A stretch of DNA of 64,000 nucleotides from NCBI RefSeq assembly GCF_024055665.1, contig NZ_JAMXMC010000013.1, forward strand, positions 1-64,000, written 5' to 3'. Source of the stretch: Ideonella oryzae (lineage in GTDB: Bacteria > Pseudomonadota > Gammaproteobacteria > Burkholderiales > Burkholderiaceae_C). Every line of letters begins with the position of its first letter. The stretch's first letter is position 1. The notes under the pieces were generated by a model. That model did no database searches. It was not told the DNA's origin and was given only the letters and a program-made list of their open reading frames with translations. Positions 52,806 to 63,778 of this stretch are shown here, one piece after another. The position numbers and the translations under genes are program-made.

Positions 52806-52936
52806 GGGAAGGGGGGTGAATGCGGATGTGGGGGCCATTGTCGCAAGTCGGCGTCGCCCTTGGTCACGCCTGGGCCGGCGCGGCCGGCCTACACTGCCGG
52901 CTGCTTCACTCTGCTCCATGGCGGAGCCCACCTGCC

Positions 52937-54382
52937 TTGGTCCTGCGCACCTCCTTTCGCCAACTGCTGCTGCTGGCCTTCGTGCTGACCGCCGCCGCGC
53001 TCGGCGCGGTGTCGCTCAGCGGCCTGCAGGCGCTGCAGGGGCTGATGGCCAAGAGCCGGGAGGCGGCCCAGCAGGCCGTGGTGCTGAACCTGGCCGTCAG
53101 CGGCCTGGGCGACCGGGCCACTGACATGGAGCGCGCCGCCCGTCAGTACCTGGTGTTGGGCGACCCGGCGCTGCGCCAGCGCTACGACGCCGCGGTGCGC
53201 GAGGCCCGCAACGCGATGCAGCCCCTGGTCGATTTCGAGCCGACGGCCACGCAGGCCCGCCATTGGCTGTCGGCGGCCGGCCAGATCCGCCGCCTGCTGG
53301 ACGACGCCGGCCTGGGCTCGCCCGAGCGCGACCAGGCCCTGAGCCAGGGCTTCGACCAGTTGGGCGAAGGCACGCGGCGCCTGACAGTGCAGGTGCAGCG
53401 CAGCATCGCCGAGCGCAACCAGGCGGTGCAGGACGCACTGGAATCCCAGCGGGCCCGTCTGGTGCGCCAGGTGGCGGTGGCCATCGTGGTGGTGGCGCTG
53501 GCGGCGCTGGCCTTCGGCCTGTGGCTGACCCGGCCGCTGCGCCAGTTGGGCCGCGCCATCACCGCCCTGGGGGAGGGGCGCATGGCCGAGCCGGTGGAGA
53601 TCTCCGGCCCTTCGGACCTGGCCCGCCTGGGCCACCAGCTGGACTGGCTGCGCCGGCGCCTGATCGAGTCCGACGCCGACAAGGACCGCTTTCTGCGCCA
53701 CACCTCGCACGAGCTGAAGACACCGCTGGCCGCGCTGCGCGAGGGCGCCTCGCTGCTGCAGGAGGGCGTGGGCGGGCCGCTGAGTGCCGGACAGGCCGAG
53801 ATCGTCGGCATCCTGCGCCACAACACTGCGGTGCTGCAGCAGCAGATCGAGGACCTGCTGCGCTACAACGCCGCCGCCTTCGACGCCCAGCGCCTGCAGC
53901 GCCGGCCCACCCGGCTGCGCAGCCTGGTCGAAGGGGTGGTCGAGGCCCAGCGCCTGAGCTGGCAGGCCCGCCACATCACGGTTGATGTCTCGGGCGGTGA
54001 GCGCCTGGAGGCGCCGGTCGACCCCGACCGCCTGGGCATGGCCCTGGGCAACCTGATGATCAACGCCATCCGCTTCACGCCCGAGGGCGGCACCATCCGC
54101 TGGCGGCTCTGGCGCGAGGGCGAGCAGGCGGCGCTGGAGATCCAGGACAGCGGCCCGGGCGTGGCCGAGCCCGACCGCGAGCACATCTTCGACCCCTTTT
54201 TCCGTGGCAGCCTGCAGCCCGAGAACCAACCTCGCGGCAGCGGCATCGGCCTGTCCATCGTGCGCGAGCAGGTGGCCGCCCACGGTGGCAGCGTGGCGCT
54301 GCAGCCCGGCCCGGGCGGCGCCAGCTTCCGTATCCTGCTGCCCCTGGGCGACACCCGCACACCCCGAGCTCCCCATGTCTGA
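52937..54382 (+). CDS. qseE: Sensor histidine kinase QseE/GlrK-like
   Basis: An inner-membrane sensor kinase of about 481 residues. The first helix is [20 protein letters not shown] and the second is [19 protein letters not shown]; a helical periplasmic domain of about 145 residues lies between. A HAMP-like linker leads to [19 protein letters not shown], the H-box with the phosphorylated histidine. [14 protein letters not shown] (N-box), [20 protein letters not shown] (G1/F) and GSGIGLSIV (G2) are all present. The start is uncertain: I use TTG 52937, giving LRTSFRQL, with GGAG 11 bases before; no good ATG exists. The order kinase, lipoprotein, sigma-54 activator matches qseEGF (glrK-yfhG-glrR) of enterobacteria. 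Confidence 0.88.
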
Positions 54383-54974
54383 CGTGATCTTCCTGTTCCG
54401 CCGCCCCGCCCCGGCATGGGCCCTCTGCCTGCTGGGCCTGCTGCTGGCGCTGTCCGGCTGCGACACCCTGCCGCCCCCGCCTGTCGAGGGCCCCGCGGCC
54501 GAGCCGCCGCAGGCCAGCGCGTCGGCCCCGACCTGCGAGCTGCCTGTCGCTGCGCCCACCCACAGCGACCGCGACCTGAGCGGCCGCCGCCTGTTGCAGT
54601 GGCAGGACGAGCTGCGCAATGCGACCGGCGAGCCGCTGCCCGCCCGCATCGCCCGCCTGAGCGCCGACACCCCCACGCCGGCCCACCAGGTCGAGCTGGG
54701 CCTGGCGCTGCTGCACACCCGCAACCCCGGCGACGCCGCCCGCGCGCAAGGCCTGCTGGAGGCCGTGGGCAAGGCCAGCGGCGACGAGGCGGCGGCCTGG
54801 GCGCCCTGGGCCCGGCTGCTGGCCGGCCGGGCGGCCGAGCAGCGCCGGCTGGAGGAACAGTCCGACCGCCTGGCCCAGCAGCTGCGCGACAGCCAGCGCC
54901 GCATCGACCAGCTCAGCGAGAAACTCGAGGCCCTGAAGGCCATCGAGCGCTCGCTGGGGCCCAAGCGGCCCTGA
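54375..54974 (+). CDS. qseG: Outer-membrane lipoprotein QseG-like
   Basis: A 199-residue lipoprotein. After a hydrophobic signal (WALCLLGLLLALSGC) comes the lipobox LSGC with the lipidated cysteine near residue 29. The mature protein has a proline-rich linker, a helical core with two tetratricopeptide-like helices (AHQVELGLALLHTRNPGDAA) and a C-terminal coiled coil. The last is RRLEEQSDRLAQQLRDSQRR with IDQLSEKLEALKAIERS. It occupies the position of QseG, which connects the kinase QseE to outer-membrane signals in E. coli. It overlaps the kinase stop by eight bases. Sequence likeness to QseG is weak, so identity rests on position and architecture. Confidence 0.8.
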   Translation: MSDVIFLFRRPAPAWALCLLGLLLALSGCDTLPPPPVEGPAAEPPQASASAPTCELPVAAPTHSDRDLSGRRLLQWQDELRNATGEPLPARIARLSADTPTPAHQVELGLALLHTRNPGDAARAQGLLEAVGKASGDEAAAWAPWARLLAGRAAEQRRLEEQSDRLAQQLRDSQRRIDQLSEKLEALKAIERSLGPKRP

Positions 54975-55018: not shown

Positions 55019-56446
<1,428 letters not shown>

Positions 56447-56496
56447 CCTTGTGTATCAGGCACTTGGCTGAATTGTTGCGCTGCAGCGAAAAAGCC

Positions 56497-56514
56497 TGTC
56501 GCTGATCGGCGACG
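56497..56514. promoter_or_regulatory. GlrR/QseF-type binding site 2
   Basis: TGTC-N10-GACG (N10 = GCTGATCGGC) differs from the consensus in the last base. Its core TGTCGC/GCGAC is palindromic. It is 78 bases downstream of site 1 and about 75-90 bases upstream of the sigma-54 promoter. Confidence 0.55.
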
Positions 56515-56587
56515 CTTTTGCCCCTGAAAACCGGGGTTGGGCTGGGCGTTGGTTCGCAAGTCATTGACTTGAAACGACTTTTCCGTC

Positions 56588-56602
56588 TGGCACGGGCTTT
56601 GC
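56588..56602 (+). promoter_or_regulatory. Sigma-54 promoter of opgG
   Basis: TGGCACGGGCTTTGC matches the -24/-12 consensus TGGCACG-N4-TTGC at every fixed base. GG and GC are ten bases apart, as required. The predicted start of transcription is about 56613, two bases before the annotated opgG ATG. Confidence 0.75.
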
Positions 56603-56614
56603 CCTGTCAGCGGC

Positions 56615-58288
56615 ATGACTGCACCTGTCCGCCGCTTCTCCACCGCCCCCAGCCCGGCCCGCCGGATGCTGCTGCTGCTGGCGGTGGCGCTGCTGGCCGC
56701 CCACGCCGGTGCCCGTGCCGCGGCCCCTGAGGCCACGCCGGCGCCTCTGCAGATGGCGGCCGCTCCCGCGGCTTCCTCCGCCGTGCCCACGGCGCCCACC
56801 GCGGCCTCCACCGCGGCGGCCGTCGTCGCCCCCTTCTTCGACCGCCTGGGCGAGCGGGCCCGCAGCCTGGCCGGCCAGCCCTATGCGCCGGTGCCCAGCC
56901 GCACTCCGCAGGCCCTGAAGGACCTGAGCTACGACCAGGCCCGCGACATCCGCTTCCGGCCCGACCACGCCGTCTGGCGCAGCCTGGGCCTGCCCTTCGA
57001 GCTGATGTTCTTCCACCTGGGCAAGTACCAGACCGAGCCGGTGCGCATGCACGAGCTGTCGCCAGATGGCGAACGCGCGCTGCCCTACCGGCCGGAGGAC
57101 TTCGATTACGGCGCCAACACCGCCTTGCAGCCCGCCGCCTGGGGCGACATCGGCCACGCCGGTTTTCGCGTGCACTACCCGCTCAACGGCAGCGCCTACA
57201 AGGACGAGTTGATCGTCTTCCAGGGCGCCAGCTACTTCCGCGCCCTGGGCGCCGGCCAGCATTACGGCCTGTCGGCCCGCGGCCTGGCGGTCGATTCGGC
57301 CGGCGGCAGCGGCCCCGAGGAATTCCCCCGCTTCACCGACTTCTGGGTCGTGCGGCCTGAGGCCGGCGCCAAGGTGCTGACCGTCTTCGCGCTGCTGGAT
57401 TCCCCGCGCGTGGCCGGCGCCTACCGTTTCGACATCCAGCCCGGCCAGAGCACCGCGGTGAACGTCCAGGCGCGCGTCTTCCTGCGCCAGACCACCCAGC
57501 CCATCCGCATCCTGGGCATCGCGCCGCTGACCAGCATGTTCCAGTTCGGCGAGAACCAGCCTAACAAGGACGACTTCCGCCCCGAGGTGCACGACAGCGA
57601 CGGCCTGATGGTGGCCAGCGGCACCGGCGAATGGCTGTGGCGCCCGCTGCAGAACCCGCGCTGGCCGCTGGTCACGTCCTTCACCATGCCCTCGCTGCGC
57701 GGCTTCGGCCTGATGCAGCGCGACCGCAGCTTCGCCAGCTACGAGGATCCCGAGGCCCGTTATGAAAAGCGGCCCTCGGCCTGGGTGACGCCGGTGGGCG
57801 ACTGGGGCGCCGGCCGCGTGGAGCTGATGCAGCTGCCCACGCCGGACGAGACCAACGACAACATCGTTGCCTACTGGGTGCCGGCCCAGCTGCCCGCCGC
57901 GGGCCAGCCGCTGAACCTGGCCTGGCGCATCGACTGGCAGGGCGACGCCCAACAGCGCCCGCCCGCCCTGTGGGTCAGCCAGACCCGCGCCGGCCGCAGC
58001 TTTGCGCCGCTGGCCACGGGCGAGCGCCAGTTCGTCATCGACTTCAACGGCACGGTGGGCGGCAAGCCCCTGCCCGACAACGCCGCCGTGCAGGCGGTGG
58101 TCAGCAGCAACGACGCCGGCCGCATCACCGAACAGAACGTCTATCGCGTGGACGCCACCGGCGCCTGGCGACTGACCCTGCGCGTGCAGACCCTGGACCC
58201 GGCCCGGCCGGTCGAGCTGCGCGCCTACCTCCGCACCGGTGCCGACACCGTGAGCGAAACCTGGACCCAGATCCTTCCTCCGCAATGA
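56615..58288 (+). CDS. opgG: Periplasmic glucan biosynthesis protein OpgG (MdoG)
   Basis: A 557-residue periplasmic protein needed for branching of osmoregulated periplasmic glucans. It has a signal region (ARRMLLLLAVALLAAHAGA near residues 15-34, cut after ARA). An alanine-rich linker precedes the OpgG domain: YDQARDIRFRPDHAVWR near 100, FELMFFHLGKYQTEPVRM and GPEEFPRFTDFWVVRPEAGA. The C-terminal part is Ig-like. The ATG at 56615 lies only about two bases after the predicted sigma-54 start site. If the promoter is right, the true start may be the ATG at 56666 (MLLLLAVALLAAHAG), which keeps the signal peptide. The stop overlaps the opgH start (ATGA), so the pair is translationally coupled. 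Confidence 0.93.
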   Translation: MTAPVRRFSTAPSPARRMLLLLAVALLAAHAGARAAAPEATPAPLQMAAAPAASSAVPTAPTAASTAAAVVAPFFDRLGERARSLAGQPYAPVPSRTPQALKDLSYDQARDIRFRPDHAVWRSLGLPFELMFFHLGKYQTEPVRMHELSPDGERALPYRPEDFDYGANTALQPAAWGDIGHAGFRVHYPLNGSAYKDELIVFQGASYFRALGAGQHYGLSARGLAVDSAGGSGPEEFPRFTDFWVVRPEAGAKVLTVFALLDSPRVAGAYRFDIQPGQSTAVNVQARVFLRQTTQPIRILGIAPLTSMFQFGENQPNKDDFRPEVHDSDGLMVASGTGEWLWRPLQNPRWPLVTSFTMPSLRGFGLMQRDRSFASYEDPEARYEKRPSAWVTPVGDWGAGRVELMQLPTPDETNDNIVAYWVPAQLPAAGQPLNLAWRIDWQGDAQQRPPALWVSQTRAGRSFAPLATGERQFVIDFNGTVGGKPLPDNAAVQAVVSSNDAGRITEQNVYRVDATGAWRLTLRVQTLDPARPVELRAYLRTGADTVSETWTQILPPQ

Positions 58289-60465
58289 CCATGACCCACA
58301 CCCGCACTCCGAGCACCACCCCGTCGGGCGCCACCGCGGCGCCGGGCATGCCCCCCATCCACCGCGGCAGCATGAAGCCCCAGCCCTGGCTGGGCGTGAC
58401 GCGCCGCCTGCGCGGCGAAACCGCCCCGGCCGACGCGCCCTGGCGCGAGAGCGCCGCGCGCAGCGCCGCTGCCCCCGCCGCCTGGGAAGCCGCCGCCAAG
58501 ACCCGCCGCCGCTGGCTGCTGTTCTGGGTGCTGTCGGCCACCCTGCTGTCGGCAGGCCTGCTCTGGAGCATCCAGCCCAGCGCCGGCACCAATGTGGTCG
58601 AGCTGGCCCAGGTCGCCCTGTTCACCCTGCTGTTCGCCTGGGTGGCCGCCGGAGCCATCACCGCGGTGATGGGCTTCTGGGTCACCCTCAAGGGCGACCG
58701 CCACACCCTGTCGGCCCAGGACGCCGAGGGCGTGACCCTGCCGGCCGATGCCCGCACCGCGGTCATCATGCCCATCTGCAACGAGGACGTGACCACCGTC
58801 TTCGCCGGCTTGCGCGCCACCTGCGAATCGCTGACCGCCTCGGGCGCCCAGCGCCTGTTCGACGTCTTCGTGCTGTCGGACACCAACCGCCCCGAGGTGC
58901 GCGCCGCCGAGCTGCGCGCCTGGCAGACGATGCGCGAGCAACTGGCCGCCGGGGGCAGCGACATCCGCGTGTACTACCGCTGGCGCCAGCTGCGCACCCG
59001 CCGCAAGGCTGGCAACGTGGCCGACTTCTGCCGCCGCTGGGGCCGTGACTACCGCTACATGGTGGTGATGGACGCCGACAGCGTGATGAGCGGCGACACC
59101 CTGGTGACGCTGGCCCGCCTGATGGAGAAGAACCCGCGTGCCGGCATCCTGCAGACCGCTCCGCGCGCCTGCGGCCATGCCACCCTGCACGCTCGCGCCC
59201 AGCAGTTCGCCAGCCGCGTGACCGGCCGCCTGTTCACCCTGGGCATGCAGTTCTGGCAGCTGGGCGAGGCCCACTACTGGGGCCACAACGCCATCATCCG
59301 CGTCGAACCCTTCATGAAGCACTGTGGCCTGGGCACCCTGCCGGGCACCGGTGCGCTGGCCGGCGAGATCCTCTCGCACGACTTCGTCGAGGCCGCGCTG
59401 ATGCGCCGCGCCGGCTACGAGGTGTGGCTGGTGGGCGACCTGGAAGGCAGCTACGAGCAGCAACCGCCGCACCTGCTGGCCGAACTGCAGCGCGACCGCC
59501 GCTGGTGCCAGGGCAACCTGCAGAACGCCCGCCTGATCGCCGAGCCGGGCCTGAAGGGCGTGCACCGCGCCATGCTGGCCACCGGCGCCATGTCCTATGT
59601 GTCGGCCCCGCTGTGGCTGGCCTATGTGGTGCTGGGCGCCGGCATCTGGATGAACAGCAACGACGACACCGTGCCCACCCTGCTGACCCATCGCAGCGTG
59701 ATCACGCTGTGGATCACCACCGGCCTGATGCTGGCCCTGCCGCGCGTGCTGGGTGTGTGGGCCGTGCTGCGCCGCGGCGAACAGGCCGCTTTCGGTGGCA
59801 CCGTGCAGCTGATCGCCAGCTCGGTGCTGGAAGCGCTGATGTCGGCCATCCAGGCCCCCATCCGCATGGCCGCCCACAGCCTCTTCGTCATCGGTGGCCT
59901 GACCGGCTGGACGCTGGAATGGAAGTCGCCCCCGCGGGAAGCCAGCGACGTGAGCTGGACCGAGGCACTGCGCCGCTTCGGCCCACTGACCGCCGTGGTG
60001 GCCGTGGCCCTGGTGGCGGTGTCCAGCGTGTCGCCCGCCACCACGCTGTGGCTGCTGCCCATGGGCCTGCCGCTGCTGTTCTCGGTGCCCTTCACGGTGC
60101 TGAGCAGCCAGGGCGTGCTGGGCCAGCGCCTGCGCGACGCCGGCTGGCTGACCATCCCCGAAGAAGCGCGCTCGCCCGCCGTGCTGCGCCAGGCCTGGCA
60201 CTACGCCCAGCTCTACGCCAACCTGCCGGCCCTGGCCACCGCGCTGCTGTCGGACCTGCCGCGCCTGGCGGCCCTGGCCATGAAGGCCGTGGGCCCGCGC
60301 CACACCGGCCAGGGCCTGCGCGGCGAAGCCCGCCGCCAGCGCATGCTGCAGCTCAGCCGCAACGCGCAGGACGCCGCCGCCGCCGAGCAGCTGCACTTCC
60401 TGAACGAGCCGCACAGCCTGCGCCTGCTGCACGCCGCCACCGCGGGCCAGGCCATGCCGCGCTGA
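58285..60465 (+). CDS. opgH: Glucan synthase OpgH (MdoH)
   Basis: A 726-residue inner-membrane glycosyltransferase that polymerises the glucan backbone from UDP-glucose, working with OpgG. Helices at about 78-100 and 110-140 (LLFWVLSATLLSAGLLW, ALFTLLFAWVAAGAI) precede the family 2 catalytic domain. In it VVMDADSVMSGDTLV is the DxD site, LSHDFVEAALMRRAGYEVW carries the catalytic aspartate, and RDRRWCQGNLQN is the QxxRW-type motif. Several C-terminal helices follow. A possible ATG two codons later would change nothing important. A strong terminator lies 25 bases after the stop. Confidence 0.95.
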   Translation: MTMTHTRTPSTTPSGATAAPGMPPIHRGSMKPQPWLGVTRRLRGETAPADAPWRESAARSAAAPAAWEAAAKTRRRWLLFWVLSATLLSAGLLWSIQPSAGTNVVELAQVALFTLLFAWVAAGAITAVMGFWVTLKGDRHTLSAQDAEGVTLPADARTAVIMPICNEDVTTVFAGLRATCESLTASGAQRLFDVFVLSDTNRPEVRAAELRAWQTMREQLAAGGSDIRVYYRWRQLRTRRKAGNVADFCRRWGRDYRYMVVMDADSVMSGDTLVTLARLMEKNPRAGILQTAPRACGHATLHARAQQFASRVTGRLFTLGMQFWQLGEAHYWGHNAIIRVEPFMKHCGLGTLPGTGALAGEILSHDFVEAALMRRAGYEVWLVGDLEGSYEQQPPHLLAELQRDRRWCQGNLQNARLIAEPGLKGVHRAMLATGAMSYVSAPLWLAYVVLGAGIWMNSNDDTVPTLLTHRSVITLWITTGLMLALPRVLGVWAVLRRGEQAAFGGTVQLIASSVLEALMSAIQAPIRMAAHSLFVIGGLTGWTLEWKSPPREASDVSWTEALRRFGPLTAVVAVALVAVSSVSPATTLWLLPMGLPLLFSVPFTVLSSQGVLGQRLRDAGWLTIPEEARSPAVLRQAWHYAQLYANLPALATALLSDLPRLAALAMKAVGPRHTGQGLRGEARRQRMLQLSRNAQDAAAAEQLHFLNEPHSLRLLHAATAGQAMPR

Positions 60466-60513: not shown

Positions 60514-60688
60514 GTTGCTGCTGGTGACAAGCATGACAGCCCGTATGAAAACTCCCCCGGATGGGTGACGGAGTGCCCGAACCCCCTTCCTAGAATCCGC
60601 GCGACCCGGGGCGTGCGAGTGTGACGAGTGTGGAGTGGGCGTGCGCTGCGAGGTCCACACAACAGCCGGCCAGGGAGGGCGGCACACC

Positions 60689-63600
60689 ATGATCAGCAGC
60701 CTGACGAGCGCCTTGGCGAGCACCTTGGGGCTCTTCGACGATGAGCAGCGCCTGTACCGGCTCGATTCGCCCTGCGCCGAGCTGGCGGGCCTGCACGTGC
60801 AGGCCTGGGCCCTGCGCGAAGCGCTCAGCCGCCCCTGGGAGCTGCAGCTGCTGGCCGTCAGCGAAACCCAGGGCCTGGACCTGCAGGCCCTGCTGGGTCA
60901 GCCCCTCACCCTGGTCACCCGCCTGGCCGACGGCAGCGAGCAGCGCCGCACCGGCCAGGTGCTGCAGGCCGCGGCCGAGGACAGCGACGGCGGCCTGGCG
61001 CGCTACCAGTTCACCGTCCAGCCCTGGCTGGGCTTTCTGGACCAGGCGCTGCGCAGCCAGGTCTGGCAGGACACCCTGCTGACCGACCTCATCGACAGCG
61101 TGCTCGGCCGCTATGCCGCCTGGGCCAGCTGGCGCTGGGCACCCTGCGTGAGCGAGCACCTGGGCGCCTCGGCCCAGGCCGGCGTGCGGCCCTACACCGT
61201 GCAGTATCGCGAGACCGATCTGGCCTTCCTGCAGCGCCTGCTGGCGCGCGAAGGCCTGGCCTACCGCTTCGAGGAGTCCGAAGACGGCCAACCCGGCCCC
61301 GCCGTCGTCTTCTTCGCCGACAGCACGGCCAGCCAGAGCTGCCCGGAGGACGCGGGATCGGCCGCCTGGGGCGGCGTGCGCTTTCACCGCGACGGCGTGC
61401 AGGAGGGGCAGGACACCCTCCAGGCCTTTGGCGGCCAACGCCAGCAGGCCGTGGCCGTGCTCAGCGCCACCCGTTACGACCCCGAGCAGGCCCGCCTGGT
61501 GGCCGCCGAGGTGGCCACCGTCGGCAGCGTGGGCGGCGAAAACGCCCCCTGGCTGGAAACCTACGAGAGCCTGGGCGAGAGCGGCCACGGCGCCCTGCTG
61601 GCCGACAGCGGCCAGCTCCAGCGCAGCCTCACCCTGGCCCAGCAGGCCGTCGAAGCCCGCCACAAGACCTGGCTGGGCCGCTCGGTGGTGCGCAGCTTCA
61701 GCGCTGGCCAGCGCTTTGCGCTGACCGATTCCCCGCTGGACGCGCTGGACGAGCTGCGCCCCGAAGAGGACAAGCAGTTCCTGCTCACCGAGCTCACCCA
61801 CGCCGGCCTCAACAACCTGCCCAAGGACCTGGCCGAGACCCTGGCGCGCCAGTTCCAGCCCTGGGGTGGACGGCGCCGCCACGACCCGCTGGCCGAGTTC
61901 TGGCCCGAGTGGCTGGAGCCCGCGCTGATCCGCCAGGCCCAGGCCCGCGGCTACGCCAACGCCTTTGCCGCCATCCGCGCCCACGTCCCCTGGCGGCCGC
62001 TGTGGGTGGATGAGCACGGTCAGTGCCTCTACCCGCGCGCCGTGGCGCCGGGCCCGCTGCTGGCCACCGTGGTGGGCCCTGACGGCAGCACCAGCCCGCA
62101 GGGCGACCAGGAGGTGCACACCGACCGCCTGGGCCGGGTGCGCATCCGCTACGAATTCCAGGGCAGTCCACAGGCCCAAGGAGACAACGCGCCGGGCACC
62201 GCCCAAAGCAACGGGCTCTCCAGCCCCTGGGTGCGCGTGCTGCAGCCGCTGGCCGGCGAAGGCCAGGGCCTGCAGTGGACCCCGCGCATCGGCCACGAGG
62301 TGCTGGTGGGCCATGTGGACGACGACCTGGAGCAGCCCATCATCCTGTGCGGCCTGTACCACGGCCGCGGCGAGGGCGGCGTGCCCGCCACGCCGGGCGG
62401 GCAGGGGGCCGAGGCGGACACGAGCAGCTTTGCCAGCAGCAGCGACGCCAGCCCCTCGGCCCAGGGCAACCTGAGCGGCGGCAACAGCCCCGCCTGGCAC
62501 GGCGGCGCCCCGGGCGAGCTCAGCCAGGGCGGCCAGCGCAACGCCGCGGCCCTGTCCGGCTACAAGAGCAAGGAATTCGGCGGCAGCGGCTACAACCAGC
62601 TCGTGTTCGACGACAGCGACGGGCAACTGCGGGTGCAACTGGCCAGCACCCAGCACGCCAGCCAGCTCAACCTGGGCCACCTCATCCACCAGGCCGACAA
62701 CCACCGCGGCAGCTTCCGCGGCACCGGCTGGGAGCTGCGCACCGACGCCTACGGCGCCGTGCGCGCCCGCCAGGGCCTGCTCATCAGCACCTTCGGTACA
62801 CAAGCCGCCGAGCCCGCGGGCGACAACGCCGCGGGCATCGCCCTGGCCCGGCAACTGGGCACCCTGAGCCAGACCTTCAGCCAGGCCGCCGCCACCCACC
62901 AGACCGTGGCCTTCTCCGGCCAGCTGGGCAGTGCCCAGGCCGGCCAGAGCCTGGTCGACCCGAAGGCAGCGCCCATCCCCGCCTGGCTCACCCAGGTCAG
63001 CGGCATGGTCAGCGCCCAGGACGCGGACCAAGCGCAAGCCGATGCGGCCGGCAAGAACACCCAGGCCAGCGACGACAAGCTGCCCCACAGCACCGACGCC
63101 ATCGCCGCTGTGAGCGCCCGTGGCGGCCTGCTGCAAACCGCGGCGGCCGACATCGTCTACGCCGCCGGCGAGAACATCCACCAGGCCAGCGCGCAGGACA
63201 TCGACCAGGCCGTGGCCGGCGCCTGGCGCCTGCACACCGGCCAGGCCATCGGCATCCTGGGCGGGGCCATCCAGCCCGGCAGCCAGGCCGCGGGCACCGG
63301 CGTGACCCTGATCGCCGGGCAGGACCCGCTGAGCATCCAGGCCCAGGCCGGCACCGCCCAGCTGGCCGCGCAAAAGCAGCTGGCCATCCAGAGCCAGAGC
63401 GCCAGCGTCAACTGGGCCGCAGCCAAGAAGATCACCCTGGCCACCGCCGGCGGCGCCTCCATCACCCTGGAGGGCGGCAACATCACCTTCGAGTGCCCGG
63501 GGACCATCACGGTCAAGGCGGGGACGAAGAGTTTTGAGGGGGCCAGCAATGAGCCCATCCAGATGCCGGAGTTGCCTCGGGGCAGCATGAACTTCGACGA

Positions 63601-63778
63601 GAAATTCCAACTGGTGGATGACGCCGGTGATCCTCTGGCCAACATGAGAGTTCTGCTCACCAGAGCGGATGGATGGTCTTCAGAGTTGGTGACAGATGCA
63701 AGTGGCCATTTGCCAGTGCAGCAGAGCTTTGCCAAAGAGGCCTTGACGATCACGGTTGTGGGACGAGTGGGAGTGTGA
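60689..63778 (+). CDS. vgrG: Type VI secretion tip protein VgrG
   Basis: A 1029-residue spike of the type VI secretion system. Its N-terminal part is gp27-like: LHVQAWALREALSRPWELQL, VQYRETDLAFLQRLLAREGLAYRF-type and LITDLIDSVL-like segments. HTDRLGRVRIRYEFQG marks the gp5 OB-fold near residue 480. WVRVLQPLAGEGQGLQWTPR and IGHEVLVGHVDDDLEQPIIL follow. A DUF2345-like repeat stretch comes next, and then IDQAVAGAWRLHTGQAIGIL-type repeats of the beta needle. The last ~60 residues (EKFQLVDDAGDPLANMRVLL) are a transthyretin-like extension. The start at 60689 is preceded by GGAGGG, 11 bases upstream. The effector gene begins one base after the stop. Confidence 0.95.
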   Translation: MISSLTSALASTLGLFDDEQRLYRLDSPCAELAGLHVQAWALREALSRPWELQLLAVSETQGLDLQALLGQPLTLVTRLADGSEQRRTGQVLQAAAEDSDGGLARYQFTVQPWLGFLDQALRSQVWQDTLLTDLIDSVLGRYAAWASWRWAPCVSEHLGASAQAGVRPYTVQYRETDLAFLQRLLAREGLAYRFEESEDGQPGPAVVFFADSTASQSCPEDAGSAAWGGVRFHRDGVQEGQDTLQAFGGQRQQAVAVLSATRYDPEQARLVAAEVATVGSVGGENAPWLETYESLGESGHGALLADSGQLQRSLTLAQQAVEARHKTWLGRSVVRSFSAGQRFALTDSPLDALDELRPEEDKQFLLTELTHAGLNNLPKDLAETLARQFQPWGGRRRHDPLAEFWPEWLEPALIRQAQARGYANAFAAIRAHVPWRPLWVDEHGQCLYPRAVAPGPLLATVVGPDGSTSPQGDQEVHTDRLGRVRIRYEFQGSPQAQGDNAPGTAQSNGLSSPWVRVLQPLAGEGQGLQWTPRIGHEVLVGHVDDDLEQPIILCGLYHGRGEGGVPATPGGQGAEADTSSFASSSDASPSAQGNLSGGNSPAWHGGAPGELSQGGQRNAAALSGYKSKEFGGSGYNQLVFDDSDGQLRVQLASTQHASQLNLGHLIHQADNHRGSFRGTGWELRTDAYGAVRARQGLLISTFGTQAAEPAGDNAAGIALARQLGTLSQTFSQAAATHQTVAFSGQLGSAQAGQSLVDPKAAPIPAWLTQVSGMVSAQDADQAQADAAGKNTQASDDKLPHSTDAIAAVSARGGLLQTAAADIVYAAGENIHQASAQDIDQAVAGAWRLHTGQAIGILGGAIQPGSQAAGTGVTLIAGQDPLSIQAQAGTAQLAAQKQLAIQSQSASVNWAAAKKITLATAGGASITLEGGNITFECPGTITVKAGTKSFEGASNEPIQMPELPRGSMNFDEKFQLVDDAGDPLANMRVLLTRADGWSSELVTDASGHLPVQQSFAKEALTITVVGRVGV

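Follow-up and report, generated by a model that had tools for sequence, protein, structure and literature searches.

The promoter region at positions 56388-56614 of the window, by which we mean the whole 64,000-nucleotide stretch of Ideonella oryzae DNA that was analyzed, is very probably the output promoter of the QseE-QseG-QseF system, driving opgGH through QseF, IHF and sigma-54. On this model, phosphorylated QseF would bind two palindromes at and just past the end of its own gene, IHF would bend the DNA between the QseF sites and the promoter, and QseF would remodel sigma-54 RNA polymerase at the -24/-12 element. Transcription would begin at the opgG start codon and yield a leaderless mRNA running into the overlapping opgH, and the amount of periplasmic glucans made would thereby depend on envelope signals. 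Most work on QseEGF has been in enterobacteria, in which the system acts on a small RNA and on rpoE. The conserved QseF-type sigma-54 control of opgGH predicted here from sequence comparison is new, on a promoter type that is itself known.

All of the genes concerned are on the + strand. The first, qseE (52937-54382, start codon approximate, in an open frame spanning 52820-54382), encodes a sensor histidine kinase with HAMP, HisKA and HATPase_c domains. It is overlapped at its 3′ end by qseG (54375-54974), encoding a putative outer-membrane lipoprotein with a lipobox, LSGC, that was read by eye; the qseG product had no match in Pfam or NCBIfam, and its name rests on gene position and on relatives adjoining qseF. 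Next comes qseF/glrR (55019-56446, stop codon at 56444-56446), for a response regulator and sigma-54 activator with Response_reg and Sigma54_activat domains. Its best NCBIfam match among 112 families is GlrR (NF011695) at 609.8 bits, short of the curated cut-off of 763 bits, and we therefore call the protein QseF-like on the basis of relatedness, synteny and the recognition helix, and not by the equivalog rule. At the position that we take to be the recognition helix of QseF/GlrR, placed by eye, the E. coli residues RNRTEFYKLL and their 10-residue counterpart in the window are nearly identical. After a gap of 168 bp from the qseF stop codon lies opgG (56615-58288; Pfam MdoG, 6e-184), the first gene of the predicted transcript, and then opgH (58285-60465), encoding a family 2 glycosyl transferase, with its start codon overlapping the opgG stop codon. 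A single copy of rpoN was found in the genome. On the 3′ side of opgH, a long frame at 60635-63778 would encode a putative type VI secretion protein resembling VgrG.

A preliminary description of this DNA had placed a -24/-12 promoter just before opgG, and it is indeed there: TGGCACGGGCTTTGC at 56588-56602 (+) agrees with TGGCAC-N5-TTGC at 10/10 positions. The two upstream TGTC-N10-GAC(A/G) sites are equally real, and they are longer palindromes, TGTCGC-N6-GCGACR, than had been recognized: UAS1, TGTCGCCGACGAGCGACA, at 56419-56436 (+), and UAS2, TGTCGCTGATCGGCGACG, at 56497-56514 (+), the latter ending in GACG, not GACA. UAS2 is downstream of the qseF stop codon, and UAS1 is inside the 3′ end of qseF. 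Since UAS1 overlaps the gene in this way, the last QseF residues are dictated by the binding site. The overlap (56419-56446 in the window) also occurs at L021, L028, L036 and other loci, and the qseF stop codon falls within a site in 16/55 loci. Three features go beyond the preliminary description. The first is a weak third QseF-type site inside qseF, AGTCGCCGGATGGCGACG at 56388-56405 (+), with one mismatch to TGTCGC-N6-GCGACR; it is identical in the 3 congeners that have the block and similar in L032 and L083. The second is an IHF-type box on the - strand at 56557-56569, CAAGTCATTGACT as written on the + strand, with one mismatch to the IHF consensus. The third is the predicted +1 at 56614 (+), placed by the sigma-54 spacing rule 12 nt downstream of the C in the -12 GC and uncertain by about 1-2 nt, which is one base before the opgG ATG at 56615. 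A sigma-70 promoter scan of 56200-56800 found none.

For a system of this kind the natural yardstick is the glmY promoter of E. coli, where QseF is reported to bind three UAS with the consensus TGT-N12-ACA, assisted by IHF (PMC6075780). In that promoter TGTCGCTTTCTGGCGACA and TGTCTCTTTTTAGCGACA are 63 bp apart, a third site is 33 bp further up, and TGGCACAGTTACTGC lies 107 bp after the nearer site. In the window, UAS1 and UAS2 are 78 bp apart, the third site is 31 bp further up, and TGGCAC begins 91 bp after the start of UAS2, within the approximately 80-130 bp from nearer site to -24/-12 that we used to define a QseF-type promoter. The paired sites TGTC-N10-GACA (TGT-N12-ACA) of that definition are found as well, despite the divergent end of UAS2, and so is an IHF box between sites and promoter. 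The two promoters are alike in having two similar palindromes, a third site and a -24/-12 element, and in adjoining qseEGF; they differ in that glmY specifies an sRNA and lies upstream of qseE, whereas the window promoter would drive opgGH, downstream of qseF, as a predicted leaderless message. E. coli also provides a protein-coding envelope gene under QseF and sigma-54, rpoE (PMC6075780), although this is another target, away from qseEGF, and the likeness is by description, not by sequence. Spacing is tightly kept among 126 related promoters that are distinct in sequence: in 42 of them the distance from the start of the nearer site to the -24 element is exactly 112 bp, and between nearer site and promoter the IHF consensus is perfect in 80/126 and has one mismatch in 35/126, compared with 0.4% and 7% in shuffled sequences. 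Moreover, 109 of the 115 IHF boxes with at most one mismatch sit 31-32 nt before the -24 element. The IHF box is part of the layout, a point on which the preliminary description needs refinement.

Caution is needed with the individual motifs. In the window, where 3.36 matches to the -24/-12 pattern with at most one mismatch would be expected, there is 1; for TGTC-N10-GACR the expectation is 3.59, and 3 matches occur, in 2 places. Each motif is at chance level, and single-motif statistics carry no weight in the argument. In its generic form, TGTC-N10-GACA, the site occurs 72 times per strand across the genome, too frequently for a genome-wide regulon to be built from it. Exact matches to the longer palindrome TGTCGC-N6-GCGACR, in contrast, number only two in the 4.70-Mb genome, UAS1 and UAS2 themselves; with one mismatch allowed there are 51 on the forward and 62 on the reverse strand, and 185 and 190 for a reversed control pattern. 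The combination is what counts. A site pair with a promoter of at least 9/10 was found in 43/58 qseF loci against 0/3480 dinucleotide shuffles, and a single site with promoter in 47/58 against, again, 0/3480.

These 58 loci comprise 55 loci from the 53 genomes, among 200 family genomes searched, that gave a strong QseF match, together with three congeners; both totals include two second, more distant QseF-like copies (L072 and L073). In the count of 55, which excludes the congeners and applies a looser standard of one site and a promoter of at least 8/10, site and promoter stand before opgG or opgH at 40/55 loci, with OpgG next in 22/55 (19 genera) and OpgH without OpgG in 18/55 (14 genera). 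They precede a BON-domain gene in 2 and other genes in 5, and the pattern is absent from 3 OpgH loci, where the -24/-12 is good and the nearer site is off pattern, and from 5 others. At 5/55 loci neither promoter nor Opg gene lies within the stretch examined; in G103, one of these genomes, the two occur beyond that stretch, and in G133 they occur at a different place in the genome. The G103 locus (L064 in this count) is scored as promoter-less, although it has a promoter beyond an insertion, and the totals given here keep that score. Since the loci that supplied the 126 promoters were partly chosen for OpgG, gene shares among those promoters are biased, and the 55-locus shares are the ones to use; named and unnamed loci overlap in part. 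A search for one site plus promoter matched 73/399 family genomes, once each except for G358 and G393 (twice), against 2/399 for the reversed control. Twenty of the places were absent from the loci already collected: opgG or opgH is next in 8, two more are behind qseF (L194 and L197), and the other 10/20, which lack both Opg genes and a promoter context of QseF type, look like chance matches. Cultured relatives that share the arrangement of the window include Hydrogenophaga pseudoflava, Roseateles depolymerans and Rhodoferax sp. OV413.

The genome is rich in activator-like candidates (a first look with the QseF query gave 111), one of which, rather than QseF, might work at these sites. We consider this very unlikely. 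In sequence the sites are close to the operators that QseF uses in E. coli, the two recognition helices are nearly identical, and the sites track QseF: among 80 named OpgG loci, the promoter is present in 63/67 with qseF adjoining and in 1/13 without it (three of these 13 having less than 1 kb of upstream sequence), and the sole promoter-bearing locus of the 13, L112, belongs to a genome with qseF on another contig. Likewise, site and promoter were found before opgH in 0/17 sampled genomes with OpgH and no QseF match, the upstream stretch being approximately 3 kb in 15 of these and 1.5 kb and 0.5 kb in the other two. Over the 200 genomes, which we take from the sampling rule and the handles to be the same for the QseF and OpgH surveys, 45 have both proteins, 8 have QseF alone, 17 have OpgH alone and 130 have neither, an odds ratio of 43, for which any p-value is only indicative, since the genomes are related and the counts thus not independent. 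Ten more distant OpgG genes (40-48% identity) have no site plus promoter (0/10); as 8 of the 10 come from genomes with QseF, these genes fall outside the circuit. QseF remains the likely activator. In the genus of the window (g1), QseF is found in 4/16 genomes, and opgG adjoins the QseF gene in the same four; G073 has a distant OpgG and no QseF, and 11/16 are without QseF and OpgG at the thresholds used. This patchy distribution suggests joint gain or loss of the qseEGF-opgGH block.

Loci in which opgGH and qseF have come apart are especially instructive. In one genus with 2 genomes (G225 and G355) where opgGH adjoins qseF, 2 others (G133 and G294) have neither site nor promoter behind qseEGF; the two sites and the promoter are found instead at opgGH, which lies roughly 50 kb from qseEGF in G133 and on a separate contig in G294. 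Similarly, in the genome of L112, labeled a Thiobacillus MAG, opgGH and qseF are on different contigs; opgGH has the sites and the promoter, and behind qseF there is a 9/10 -24/-12-like sequence and no site. At the G103 locus (L263), an insertion of approximately 1.5 kb separates qseF from the sites, and opgG is directly preceded by the two sites, the promoter and, at +1, an ATG. The insertion, which holds a Fic-like frame (labeled by eye), amounts to a natural insertion test of the operator. In the separated loci, then, sites and promoter accompany opgGH, not qseF. This bears on the notion that the palindromes are a terminator hairpin closing the qseEGF operon, with opgG under some unrelated promoter. 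On the + strand a short hairpin could arise from UAS2, with CTTTTG after it, and a terminator-like sequence was also called on the - strand, but TTTT occurs within 10 nt after the nearest site in just 15/126 related promoters (AAAA in 60/126), the sites hold narrow distances to the IHF box and promoter, and they remain with opgGH when it is apart from qseF. We judge a terminator very unlikely on these grounds and set it aside. The idea in the preliminary description that QseF and sigma-54 act on opgGH directly is supported by the glmY-like layout, its recurrence before opgG or opgH, the co-occurrence and the separated loci taken together.

A +1 counted from the -12 element falls at the opgG ATG, which implies a leaderless sigma-54 mRNA. 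The same arrangement recurs: among 93 OpgG-first promoters, an ATG in the OpgG frame lies 0-4 nt from the predicted +1 in 77 (53 of them at offset 1), against at most 7/93 in any other 7-nt window, and 16/93 have no ATG at +1. In the genus of the window, the ATG at 56615 is conserved in all four block-bearing genomes, our own included. It may be asked whether the sigma-54 promoter is correct and translation nonetheless begins downstream, at the in-frame ATG at 56665, behind a leader of some 50 nt. Later in-frame starts exist in 67/77 loci, the window among them, so that judging by that locus alone a downstream start is possible. But the ATG at 56665 is a TTG in one congener (G063), the ATG at +1 has no later in-frame ATG, GTG or TTG before the mature domain in 10/77 loci and no later ATG in 32 more, and in-frame ATGs are concentrated at +1, with no such excess in the adjoining windows. 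A downstream start is, in our estimate, rather unlikely, and the opgG mRNA is probably leaderless, with initiation likely at the 56615 ATG. The pattern is looser before opgH, where 21 OpgH-first promoters divide into 10 with an ATG in the OpgH frame, 6 with a short separate frame and 5 with none. A conserved frame of 66-68 codons begins at the predicted +1 in front of opgH at L035, L042, L046 and L207, and also at L056, where no opgH was found; it would specify an unnamed small protein from a predicted leaderless message. In Sinorhizobium meliloti, 171 start sites of naturally leaderless mRNAs are reported (PMC3616915), which are similar in having the AUG at or adjoining the 5′ end; unlike that set, the case predicted in the window involves a sigma-54 promoter and shows conservation in many genera.

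Given the precedent of E. coli, where the same promoter type drives the sRNA glmY, the promoter might be supposed to serve an sRNA, or qseF itself, with opgG a mere neighbor. There is some encouragement for this elsewhere in the family, as discussed below for genus g33, but with the opgG ATG at +2 of the predicted transcript there is no space for an sRNA in the window, and Rfam gave no credible match, only sub-threshold ones, for the window and four relatives. As for qseF, the promoter is directed away from it, and opgGH retains the promoter when separated. We regard either version as scarcely credible for this locus, where opgGH would be the target. Across the order, opgGH is not always the target, a second refinement of the preliminary description. 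A stricter pattern matched 39/399 genomes order-wide, and 26 of the places, examined outside the family of the window, are followed by OpgG in 2 (L214 and L215), OpgH in 3 (L229-L231), BON-domain-like proteins in 13 (L216-L227 and L235), bactofilin-like proteins in 2 (L238 and L239) and other things, some of them chance matches, in 6. Pfam found BON in 3/3 candidates tested, one of them scoring right at the cut-off. For the single bactofilin-like stretch submitted it gave no match, and that label was assigned by eye. Within the family, a few members (L066, L067 and L194) also have, instead of opgGH, a gene for a small BON-domain-like (OsmY-like) protein. In genus g33 (L069 and L197), a short transcript is predicted 3′ of the promoter and before a helicase-like gene, with a terminator-like end at L069 made up of a GCCAAGC...GCTTGGC-type hairpin and a T-run. 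It had no Rfam match and is possibly a sigma-54 small RNA, a candidate counterpart of glmY. As an output of QseF the promoter is thus conserved, while the genes behind it vary and are for the most part envelope genes; here they are opgGH. We lean, by no great distance, towards a broader interpretation in which, in this order, an ancient output socket for QseF, IHF and sigma-54 lies at the 3′ end of qseF, and different envelope genes have replaced one another in it (opgGH, only opgH, periplasmic BON-domain proteins, proteins of bactofilin type and possibly a small RNA), with a leaderless mRNA and double control of glucans in the glucan lineages. If this is true, glucan output would be governed twice, by envelope sensing at transcription and, at translation, by whatever controls leaderless initiation.

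The opgGH operons of enterobacteria (mdoGH) contain the same two genes, and the expected output, glucan synthesis, is the same; no QseF or sigma-54 control of them is evident among the literature matches listed. Indeed, in the titles and abstract openings of those matches, a collection with most subscription journals outside its scope, neither QseF or sigma-54 control of opgGH nor a conserved leaderless sigma-54 mRNA is reported. The most likely output of QseEGF in this other group, across approximately 30 genera of the family of the window, would be envelope glucans, and osmoregulated glucan synthesis would gain a dedicated envelope-sensing switch. The comparison depicts a regulatory layout that is kept while its payload changes, and it suggests that leaderless sigma-54 mRNAs form a conserved class.
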